Source of the DNA: Cobetia marina
GTDB lineage: Bacteria; Pseudomonadota; Gammaproteobacteria; Pseudomonadales; Halomonadaceae
Length of the DNA stretch: 64,000 nt
Reading direction: 5' to 3'
Assembly (NCBI RefSeq): GCF_001720485.1
Contig: NZ_CP017114.1
Span: 372,001 to 436,000 of the forward strand
The position numbers were made by a program, and so were the translations under genes. Shown here one piece after another: positions 5,264 to 12,744 of this stretch. A model generated the notes under the pieces. That model made no database searches. It saw only the letters and a list, made by a program, of their open reading frames with translations, and was not told the DNA's origin. How positions within the stretch are numbered: the stretch's first letter is position 1; each line of letters opens with the position of its first letter.

Positions 5264-6133
5264 ATGACCGACTCTGCCGATCGACCCGCCACTCTGCCCG
5301 CCAGCCGCAAGCGCAAACCCGCCGATGATTTTCCGGCGCTGGTGATCCCCTATCACGGGGAGCTGCTGGCAGGTATCGATGAGGTCGGGCGTGGACCGCT
5401 GGTCGGGCCCGTGGTGGCGGCAGCGGTGATTCTTGACCCGAATGACCCCATCGAGGGCATCACCGACTCCAAGAAACTCAGCGAGAAGAAGCGCCTGGCA
5501 CTGTACGAGCAGATTCGTACGCGTGCCTGGGCCTGGGCGATCGCCGAGGCTACCAGTGAAGAGATCGATGAGCTGAACATCTATCAGGCCACGCACCTTG
5601 CGATGCGGCGTGCTGTCGATGCCCTGGGCGTACGCCCGGAATATCTGCTGGTGGATGGCAACCGCTTGCCGGGGCACGAGATTCCCGGCATGGCAGTGGT
5701 GAAGGGCGACCTGCGCCACGCCGCCATCGGCGCGGCTTCCATACTGGCCAAGGTATACCGCGATGCCCAGATGGCAGCGCTGGATGCCTGCTTCCCCGCC
5801 TACGGTTTCGCGCGTCACAAGGGCTACCCGACCCGCGAGCATCAGGCCGCCATCGAGACGCATGGCATCCTTACCCTGCATCGCAAGAGCTTCGGGCCGG
5901 TCAAGCGGCTTTACATGGCCGGGCATGTGCCGCAGGCCGTGCCGGAAGATGCATTGATCGCGCTGCCGGCCCCGGTTGAGCCAGCCGCTGAGCCGGACAA
6001 GGCTGTCGAGTCATCAGGGCATTCGTCGGGGCCGTCAGAGCAATCGTCGGGGCCGTCAGAGCAGGAAGCGGCCCTGTCGACGAGTGAGCCGAGCCAGTCT
6101 CCCGCTGCAAAAAAGCCGCCAGCCGTGGTCTGA
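5264..6133 (+). CDS. rnhB: Ribonuclease HII with disordered C-terminal tail
   Basis: RNase HII nicks 5' of ribonucleotides embedded in DNA and removes RNA from hybrids. The core (residues about 30-225) has [19 protein letters not shown] with the D-E-G-R-G catalytic motif, then [25 protein letters not shown] and HKGYPT. Typical family length is about 200. This 289-residue protein adds about 30 residues at the N-terminus. It also has a tail of about 60 residues rich in Ser, Pro, Glu and Ala, with a 21-base tandem duplication (6023-6064) coding SSGPSEQ twice. The last codons contain A AAA AAG (6109-6115) followed by a strong hairpin that spans the stop codon. In the -1 frame no stop occurs before dnaE, so a frameshift fusion is possible (see findings). 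Confidence 0.94.
6023..6064 (+). repeat. 21-bp tandem duplication in rnhB tail
   Basis: Two copies of a 21-base unit (6023-6043 and 6044-6064) differ at only the last base and encode SSGPSEQ twice. They sit in the low-complexity tail after the RNase HII fold, so they probably vary linker length rather than activity. Confidence 0.85.
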
Positions 6134-6155
6134 CTGATGCCAGTGAGACCACGGC
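6109..6155 (+). promoter_or_regulatory. Candidate programmed -1 frameshift signal, rnhB to dnaE
   Basis: The slippery heptamer A AAA AAG is at 6109-6115 with AAA and AAG as the actual zero-frame rnhB codons, the same heptamer and phase as E. coli dnaX. A 6-base spacer (6116-6121) follows. Then comes a perfect 10-bp stem, GCCGTGGTCT (6122-6131) with 6146-6155, extended past one G-G mismatch by ACTG/CAGT with loop ATGC. The rnhB TGA (6131-6133) is inside the stem. After a -1 slip the frame is open from 6115 through the dnaE ATG at 6337. No U-tract follows the stem, which argues against an ordinary terminator. Confidence 0.65.
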
Positions 6156-6336
6156 ATCCCCGTCAGTCGAGGTCGTCCTGACAGGCGAGGCGCCTTCAGA
6201 CGCTGCCCCCGACGCGCTATCCTTGGCAGCGGAGTCCCCGCCTTCAGCGTCCAAGGCGCCGGCAGCGTCAGCGCGGCCATCGTCACCCGCCGCGACTGAA
6301 TCCTTTACCGTCACGCAGACTTCACGAGCCGATTCC

Positions 6337-9837
<3,501 letters not shown>

Positions 9838-11211: not shown

Positions 11212-12744
11212 ATGTCTCTGTCTTCTTCACTGGACTCGATGTCCTCGTCTCCGCAGTCTCTTGGCGAGATGGCGGAATCGCGCGCACTCGTTGCCGTCCG
11301 TGCGGCGTTGGCAACAACGGATTCACGGCACACGGTATGGATCGCACTCTCGGGCGGACTGGATTCGGTGATGCTGGCGAGGCTGGCGGCACGAGCGACG
11401 CAGGAGTGCCCGCGGCGACTGCGGCTGGTGCATGTGCACCATGGCCTGCAGGCGGCCAATGATGATTTCGAGCGTCTGGCGCGCAGGCTGGCCTCGCGGT
11501 TGGGGTTGCCGTTGAGTGTGCGCCATCTGGCGCTGGATGAGGCGGCATTCAAGTCGCGAGGCGTGGAGGCTGCCGCACGTGAGGCGCGGCTGGCGGCACT
11601 GACGGCCTGTCTGGCGGCGGGCGATAGCCTGTGGCTGGCGCAGCATCAGGATGATCAGGCCGAGACATTGTTGCTCAACGCGCTGCGCGGCAGTGGCGGG
11701 CGCGGGCTGGCGGCCATGCCGCCTGAGCGGGCGCTGACTGTGGGCAACTCGCCCACTGGGCGAGATCTGCCCCCCCATGCGCGTGCACGACTGGTACGCC
11801 CGCTGCTGGATGTCTCTCGCCGTGATCTCGAGACTCTGGCGAGTCAGCAAGGGCTGTGTGTCTCACGAGACTGGTGCGAGGACCCCAGCAATCTCAGTCA
11901 GCGTTTCGATCGCAATTATCTGCGTCACACGGTGCTGCCGGCACTCGAAGGGCGTTGGCCACAGGCTGCGGGCAGCCTTGCGCGCTCGGCGCAGCAGCTC
12001 CAGGAAGAGCAGTCATTGCTGGATGAGCTGGCGGCCGAGCTGCTGGCGAAGGTACGGCTGTCAGGCGCGGAGCGCGTCACGCCGGGGCAGGAGCAAGAGC
12101 AAGAGCAAGAGCAAGAGCAAGAGCAAGAGCAAGAGCAAGAGCAAGAGCAAGAGCAAGAGCAAGAGCAAGAGCAAGAGCAAGAGCAGGAGCAGGAGGTGCA
12201 GCTGTCGTTGGCACGTCTGGGCGAGTTGAGTGAGCCACGCCAGCGTCTGGTGTTGCGTCACCTGTGCCAATCACGCGGCTGGCCGGTGCCGCCGCGCGGG
12301 CGCCTGGCCAGTCTGCAGCAGTGGATCGCCACGCCGCCGGACTCGGTGGCGGAGGTGCGCTGGCACAGTCCGGTCTCAAGTCTGGTGGTGCGCCTCTGGC
12401 GCGGTCAGCTGTGGTGGCAGGTGAGTGATACCGTTACAAGGCATGGTCTTGGTGATGGGGTCAGTGACTGCCAACGGCGTGAACTGGATGATCGGGCGAG
12501 ACAGAGCTGGCAGGCATTGGCCGCGCAGGAGGACGAAGTCGTGATCGGTCAGCGTCAGCCGGGTGATGTCATGCGTCTGGCTGACAGGGGCCGGCGGGAC
12601 CTCAAGCGCCTGCTGCAGGAAGCCGACATCCCACCCTGGCAGCGCCACCAGCTGCGGGTAGCGCGACGTGCCCGCGATCAAGCCATCGTGGCGCTATGGC
12701 ATCCCGCGTGCGGGTGGTGGTTGCGAGCAAAGCCGAGTGGCTGA
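11212..12744 (+). CDS. tilS: tRNA(Ile)-lysidine synthase with expanded Glu-Gln repeat
   Basis: TilS converts C34 of the CAU-anticodon tRNA-Ile to lysidine using ATP and lysine, so that the tRNA reads AUA. The P-loop-like LSGGLDSVML (SGGxDS motif) is near residue 45. HVHHGLQA and the QHQDDQAETLLLNALRGSGGRGLAAM segment are typical. The C-terminal TilS domain includes RQPGDVMRL and DLKRLLQEADIPPWQR. At 510 residues it is longer than usual (about 430-440). Part of the excess is an uninterrupted (Glu-Gln)17 tract at residues about 294-327 between the catalytic and C-terminal domains, encoded by 15 perfect GAGCAA units. GGGAG upstream supports the ATG at 11212. The gene follows accA, as in E. coli. 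Confidence 0.93.
   Translation: MSLSSSLDSMSSSPQSLGEMAESRALVAVRAALATTDSRHTVWIALSGGLDSVMLARLAARATQECPRRLRLVHVHHGLQAANDDFERLARRLASRLGLPLSVRHLALDEAAFKSRGVEAAAREARLAALTACLAAGDSLWLAQHQDDQAETLLLNALRGSGGRGLAAMPPERALTVGNSPTGRDLPPHARARLVRPLLDVSRRDLETLASQQGLCVSRDWCEDPSNLSQRFDRNYLRHTVLPALEGRWPQAAGSLARSAQQLQEEQSLLDELAAELLAKVRLSGAERVTPGQEQEQEQEQEQEQEQEQEQEQEQEQEQEQEQEQEQEVQLSLARLGELSEPRQRLVLRHLCQSRGWPVPPRGRLASLQQWIATPPDSVAEVRWHSPVSSLVVRLWRGQLWWQVSDTVTRHGLGDGVSDCQRRELDDRARQSWQALAAQEDEVVIGQRQPGDVMRLADRGRRDLKRLLQEADIPPWQRHQLRVARRARDQAIVALWHPACGWWLRAKPSG
12091..12192 (+). repeat. GAGCAA hexanucleotide microsatellite in tilS
   Basis: Fifteen perfect tandem copies of GAGCAA (12091-12180) are followed by two of GAGCAG (12181-12192). 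The unit is six bases, so copy-number slippage would change protein length by two residues without breaking the frame. The absence of synonymous drift among 15 copies suggests recent expansion. Confidence 0.97.

Follow-up and report, generated by a model that had tools for sequence, protein, structure and literature searches.

The question raised by the rnhB-dnaE locus of Cobetia marina is whether all ribosomes translating rnhB terminate at its stop codon, or whether a fraction of them shifts into the -1 frame and continues through dnaE, joining ribonuclease HII covalently to the alpha subunit of DNA polymerase III. The analysed stretch of 64,000 nucleotides (the window) comes from a genome of 4.18 Mb in a single contig. 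The open reading frames observed around the locus form a run which we take to be lpxD, fabZ, lpxA, lpxB, rnhB, dnaE, accA and tilS, the names other than rnhB and dnaE being assumed. The following features of the window are relevant.

5264..6133, + strand: rnhB (ribonuclease HII), zero-frame open reading frame, 289 aa
5909..6130, + strand: C-terminal tail of RnhB, hypervariable, Ser/Ala/Pro/Glu-rich, ending KKPPAVV (six-species comparison, protein clusters P0097-P0099)
6085..6087, + strand: TGA, the final stop of the -1 (dnaE) frame upstream of the slip site, leaving a 46-nt open overlap with rnhB
6109..6115, + strand: slippery heptamer A AAA AAG, in the rnhB frame within the codons GCA AAA AAG
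6116..6121, + strand: spacer CCGCCA, 6 nt, read directly; length constant in 6/6 Cobetia species
6122..6155, + strand: presumed stimulatory stem-loop, outer 10-bp stem 6122-6131/6146-6155, inner stem 6133-6136/6141-6144
6131..6133, + strand: TGA, zero-frame stop of rnhB, inside the stem-loop
6115..6336, + strand: linker in the -1 frame, 74 codons from the translation (ESFTVTQTSRADS is the end of the translation given), open in 6/6 species
6316..6336, + strand: the 21 nt before the dnaE ATG, 20/21 columns invariant in six species; probable initiation region with a weak GAG
6337..9837, + strand: dnaE, encoding DNA polymerase III alpha (1166 aa when counted from the dnaE ATG); its frame is -1 with respect to rnhB

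The catalytic domain of RnhB covers residues 36-211 (Pfam RNase_HII, 2.4e-39), and DnaE carries the PHP, DNA_pol3_alpha, finger, HHH_6, OB and C-terminal domains. One rnhB match and one full-length DnaE match were found per genome in six Cobetia species, thus any fusion would involve the sole full-length DnaE of the cell.

The arrangement described in the initial annotation, with the heptamer followed by a 6-nt spacer and a 10-bp stem extending to 14 pairs that encloses the rnhB stop, could be read directly in the sequence. The hairpin consists of a perfect 10-bp outer stem and four inner pairs. The signal region folds with -30.3 kcal/mol (z -4.6, none of 200 shuffles being as good) and the isolated hairpin with -27.9 kcal/mol (z -8.2). 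The usual distance of the downstream structure from the slip site is 5-8 nt (PMC4066793, in part). The proposed likeness to E. coli dnaX is in agreement with the literature, since A AAA AAG together with a hairpin drives the slippage of tRNA-Lys in that organism (PMC5009743 and PMC4066793, both in part). As a chance sample, 20 stretches of 20 kb and the window (464 kb, approx. 11% of the genome) were taken, in which AAAAAAG occurs in 19 copies on both strands, 18 of them scorable. A hairpin of -20 kcal/mol or better follows only one of the 18, the rnhB site, and the combination of a long open reading frame, a nearby zero-frame stop and a long open -1 frame was likewise found only there. No Rfam match was obtained in 5900-6500 up to E = 10, which speaks neither for nor against another role of the hairpin.

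On the basis of these sequence features and the model built on them, we consider it highly probable that programmed -1 frameshifting of the dnaX type yields both RnhB and an RnhB-linker-DnaE fusion of about 1524 residues. With the ribosome on A AAA AAG, the hairpin ahead of it would impede translocation, and tRNA-Lys (UUU) would re-pair one base back. The shifted fraction would pass the rnhB stop and translate first the 74-codon linker, probably a flexible one, and then all of dnaE, giving RNase HII tethered to Pol III alpha (about 1524 aa); unshifted ribosomes would terminate and release the RnhB of 289 aa.

The comparison was made on six Cobetia species, the window included, which fall into two clades, so that the independent evidence is below six. 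In all of them the heptamer is identical, its first base lies exactly 22 nt ahead of the rnhB stop, and dnaE occupies the -1 frame with respect to rnhB. These observations bear on the suggestion of the initial annotation that a homopolymer error may conceal a permanent gene fusion. A single base would indeed join both frames; however, six assemblies agree in having the heptamer, a stop in the zero frame and the offset between the frames, and the RnhB clusters P0097, P0098 and P0099 (80-98% identity) share the ending KK(P/L)PAVV. The probability of a sequencing error or a permanently fused gene is therefore practically negligible, and that suggestion was abandoned. The tail of P0098 matches none of the six Cobetia genomes.

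Within the 47-nt element 41 columns are invariant in the six species, and 8/48 columns are invariant in the flank on each side by ungapped comparison; the best 47-nt windows elsewhere have 41 invariant columns in the rnhB core and 42 in early dnaE. Between genomes G000 and G005, 54 nt of the element are identical despite a synonymous divergence of 0.41 in both genes. The codon holding the first A of the heptamer differs, being GCA (Ala) in four species and GAA (Glu) in two, yet that A is kept. A TGA of the -1 frame directly adjoins the heptamer in G002 and G003, thus the frame opens exactly at the slip site there. Four distinct hairpin variants were aligned and three hairpin types were folded, giving -27.9, -20.2 and -22.3 kcal/mol with z values of -4 to -8. 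The stem is complete, with 14 pairs, in the G000 and G004 types and has 13 pairs in G002 and G003, where one pair is changed to U-G and one to a U.C mismatch; in G002 an inner G-C pair has also become G-U. Two-sided compensatory changes in stem pairs were not found among the Cobetia variants, which vary too little to be informative in this respect. Since double compensation is lacking, the argument for the stem rests on conservation and not on covariation.

The A run of the slip site has six A in four of the species and seven in two, and this raises the question whether RNA polymerase, rather than the ribosome, slips and thereby yields the fusion. Both mechanisms are known at poly-A sites, and it has been argued that dnaX genes split into two ORFs may also use transcriptional slippage, even on a run of only seven A (PMC3711429, in part). 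Nevertheless, its sites are often homopolymers of at least 8 (PMC3711429, in part), longer than the run in Cobetia, and a hairpin that is conserved at the distance typical of ribosomal shifting favours the ribosome. We consider the transcriptional mechanism very unlikely.

Ribosomal slippage would depend on tRNA-Lys. In the genome of the window three tRNA-Lys genes with the anticodon UUU were found and confirmed by ARAGORN, and motif search at 0-1 mismatch detected no CUU-type tRNA-Lys there. The sole match with two mismatches, CTCTTAA, was ruled out as a CUU tRNA-Lys since there is no tRNA at that position. Among the matches listed, UUU tRNA-Lys is represented by four genes in G001 and three in G003, and the draft genome G002 has no perfect match. 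In genomes where UUU is the only lysine tRNA, motifs of this type should shift as readily as they do in E. coli (PMC4066793, in part). Upstream of the heptamer, a Shine-Dalgarno-like stimulator is strong in G002 (-9.5), moderate in G003 (-5.7) and absent in the other four species, thus no conserved one was found among the six. This element is a helper and not a requirement, as cso2 appears to lack one (PMC5009743, in part).

Outside the genus the cassette was not detected. A DNA search with 6100-6175 gave matches in 6 of the 275 family genomes, all of them Cobetia with one match each, and none in the other 269. The rnhB-dnaE junction was surveyed in 197 loci (79 from genome contigs and 118 from family genomes, the fragment G140 having been left out of 119 family matches). 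Thirty-eight loci lacked a recognised rnhB or dnaE motif and were set aside, leaving 159 analysable junctions in a partly redundant set, as L009 and L116 look identical. In 36 of the 159, dnaE lies in the -1 frame with an open overlap. These 36 junctions were scanned for an in-frame heptamer X XXY YYZ with Y = A or T; it was present in six, the Cobetia ones, and missing from 30. Hence the combination of an in-frame heptamer and an open -1 frame occurs in none of the other 153 analysable junctions. The expectation that the cassette is kept in relatives was correct for the six Cobetia species, whereas it was not found in the other Halomonadaceae surveyed; a family-wide trait is ruled out, and, judged from these genomes, the cassette looks like a genus-level innovation of Cobetia.

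In nine of the ten sampled species of a separate genus of the survey, g5, the open overlap in the -1 frame measures 46 or 85 nt and contains no heptamer. The rnhB-dnaE gap is of equal length in L120, L121, L128, L131, L132, L133, L135, L142 and L154, and the tenth species sampled, L105, has a different frame offset.

The Ser/Ala/Pro/Glu-rich tail of RnhB is absent from most of the other Halomonadaceae RnhB proteins read, which stop soon after the domain, and the Halomonadaceae RnhB among the best 120 of 4085 protein matches likewise end shortly after the catalytic domain. In Cobetia the tail preceding the signal is hypervariable; measured from a constant position behind the domain, it has 30-70 codons. 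Its conservation is confined to the final RnhB residues, which overlap the frameshift signal.

As the initial annotation had claimed, and as translation confirmed, no stop interrupts the -1 frame between 6115 and the dnaE ATG at 6337, a distance of 74 codons, nor within dnaE before its own stop at 9837. In the six species the linker has 74-111 codons, whole codons in all cases, and contains no stop in the 507 codons of the -1 frame, compared with 13/501 and 25/501 in the other frames. Base-shuffled linkers stay open with a probability of 0.025-0.22 per species (product 3e-6, relatedness ignored). These values have to be weighed against the explanation that the hairpin serves RNA processing, attenuation or termination alone and that the frame is open by chance. 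A strong hairpin between adjacent genes would suit such a role, and so would the lack of codon-position bias in the linker described below. On the other hand, the sequence 3' of the hairpin, read directly, has no U-run, the heptamer is conserved together with the hairpin, and chance openness agrees poorly with the stop counts and the shuffled linkers; consequently this explanation is highly unlikely.

The composition of the linker counts against the frameshift reading. In the window, the linker has a GC by codon position of 0.65/0.73/0.65, unlike dnaE with 0.66/0.40/0.85, and also looks less like a gene than the RnhB tail in its zero frame (0.73/0.58/0.71); third-position GC is lower in the linker than in dnaE in 6/6 species, and a codon-position bias like that of the neighbours was not found. 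The lack of this bias lowers our confidence both in the frameshift and in the tether. The dN/dS of the linker is 0.23-0.79 in 15 pairs and 0.15-0.99 after the element, computed on an amino-acid alignment, which favours the frame; in the rnhB core and early dnaE it is 0.02-0.13. In DNA alignments of six pairs the third-position excess of differences is only slight in the linker; of the 10 gap runs that they contain, 8 have a length divisible by three, and the pair G000-G001 shows runs of 1 and 8. The linker is perhaps lightly translated or recently recruited. We read it as a tether required to stay open and otherwise nearly free of constraint.

EP-repeat expansions are found in the hypervariable tail/linker of G004 and G005. 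The lengths of the tail and the linker compensate each other in the six species (r = -0.72, totals 119-150 aa), and an equally small variance of the totals was obtained in 36 of 720 permutations, relatedness ignored. This hints at a protein-level constraint and is suggestive only, as there are six related points from two clades.

Within the variable linker there is an invariant spot at 6211-6225 in the six species (DNA GCTATCCTT, peptide D[A/R]LS[L/F]), possibly a short binding motif. Another side observation concerns the tilS-like gene, in which an 18-copy GCAAGA tandem repeat (12087-12195 of the window) encodes an EQEQEQ stretch; these hexamer repeats could vary in-frame in length between strains.

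The initial annotation saw no Shine-Dalgarno sequence before the dnaE ATG; a strong one is indeed absent, but a weak GAG is located 8 nt upstream. The Shine-Dalgarno energies are -2.2 kcal/mol for dnaE, -2.6 for lpxB and -3.0 for rnhB, and the median of random 17-mers of the window is -3.0. One may therefore ask whether all or most DnaE is made as the fusion, with the internal ATG unused. The dnaE Shine-Dalgarno is very weak, slightly below that median in strength, and the dnaX signal of E. coli reaches about 50% (PMC5009743, in part). However, 20 of the 21 nt before the ATG are invariant, as expected for an initiation region, and rnhB and lpxB alongside also have weak Shine-Dalgarno sequences. 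Since such weak sequences are common in this gene run, the absence of a strong one is poor evidence against DnaE having its own start. From the near-invariant 21 nt and the weak sequences at rnhB and lpxB we infer that a stand-alone DnaE is also made: it is probably started at its own ATG as well, and exclusive production as a fusion is very unlikely.

A word-based search, which can miss distant cases, found 87 proteins of 580-953 aa that carry an RnhB region, and no genuine RnhB-DnaE gene fusion was recognised among them by precomputed Pfam domains, six being read fully. P0085 (RNase_HII + PHP), the only one of the 87 with a DnaE-type domain, was rejected as a natural fusion, because in its full sequence a frame-shifted rnhB runs into dnaE, probably as a draft-assembly artefact. 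A query of 110 residues comprising the linker and the start of DnaE matched 8 DnaE proteins, over only 33% of its length.

The same search brought up other long proteins. P0002-P0005, P0077 and P0084 contain PF02684, presumably the LpxB family, and RNase HII in one long protein, thus neighbouring genes of the run are apparently fused in some lineages. P0006-P0075 are RNase HII proteins of 651-913 aa, of which P0006, P0018 and P0073 have low-complexity N-terminal extensions of several hundred residues.

The frameshift may be real and the fusion still a by-product, the signal mainly setting the flow of ribosomes into dnaE (ratio control or coupling) and the tethering having no selected role. The weak Shine-Dalgarno at the dnaE ATG, the poor conservation and missing codon-position bias of the linker, and the lack of a recognised natural fusion among the 87 long RnhB proteins are all consistent with this. 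Ratio control alone, however, has no obvious need for a stop-free linker of 74-111 codons in 6/6 species, and the compensating tail and linker lengths hint at a constraint on the protein, albeit from six related points. We regard the by-product explanation as a tentative possibility, clearly short of an even chance.

Returning to a fusion with a function of its own, RNase HII would sit at the PHP-domain end of alpha, and the tether might reach the nascent DNA behind the polymerase. The fusion could serve in removing misincorporated ribonucleotides or RNA near the fork, or simply set the dose of DnaE. The slippage itself, its rate, and the benefit of the fusion for ribonucleotide or RNA removal behind the replisome are what we infer. 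The stronger proposal, that a sizeable share of the Cobetia replicase catalytic subunits is born covalently tied to RNase HII by a flexible tether of approx. 119-150 residues, the removal of ribonucleotides thus moving along with the fork at a dose set by ribosomal frameshifting and not by gene fusion, has in our view a chance that falls just below even. RnhB and DnaE exist elsewhere as separate complete gene products. If true, this would represent a new type of protein architecture and a novel application of recoding, in which a frameshift links ribonucleotide repair to the replicative polymerase in an optional manner. It would also provide a naturally occurring, tunable means of examining whether excision repair of ribonucleotides acts at the fork.

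The initial annotation knew of no described rnhB-dnaE frameshift, and neither a frameshift nor a fusion of these genes was found among the papers listed from the open-licence PMC literature, covered by titles and the starts of abstracts. In the main texts of PMC3711429 (146 recoding clusters) and PMC4066793 (69 clusters) rnhB and dnaE do not appear, and the first 300,000 of the 475,107 characters of the review PMC5009743 do not mention them. RnhB is listed among the proteins co-evolving with DnaE, and rnhB also appears in the PolC table (PMC3814617, in part).

Among the known systems, E. coli dnaX shares with rnhB-dnaE the A AAA AAG heptamer, a strong simple downstream hairpin and the involvement of a DNA polymerase III gene (PMC5009743 and PMC3711429, both in part). 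A sole tRNA-Lys would be a further likeness, UUU being the only type found in the genome of the window. The shift in dnaX shortens the product within one gene, whereas that in rnhB-dnaE would lengthen it by joining two, and dnaX is helped by an upstream Shine-Dalgarno-like stimulator, whereas none is conserved in Cobetia rnhB. The dnaX genes of the six Cobetia species (L218-L223), intended as a positive control, contain no in-frame X XXY YYZ heptamer, so this control failed; the gamma subunit, if made in Cobetia, is thus not produced via an E. coli-type signal.

In orfA/orfB of the IS3 family a zero-frame open reading frame also continues in the -1 frame at a slippery motif, often with a structure (PMC4066793, in part). 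Those are mobile elements, whereas rnhB and dnaE are chromosomal housekeeping genes with one match per genome, and the repeated genomic copies characteristic of IS elements were not found, as the element has a single match in each Cobetia genome. In the GeneTack clusters, for example those of magnesium chelatase and of a spore germination protein, a programmed frameshift joins adjacent annotated genes into a long protein (PMC3711429, in part). Fused versions of the magnesium chelatase genes, and of those in several further clusters, occur elsewhere; the spore germination cluster is like rnhB-dnaE in that no fused gene was found. In retroviral Gag-Pol (PMC5009743, in part) the polymerase is borne and positioned by the protein domain upstream of it, as it would be in the RnhB-DnaE fusion. 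Gag-Pol is viral and has other stimulators and proteins, thus the likeness between the two systems is one of logic only.
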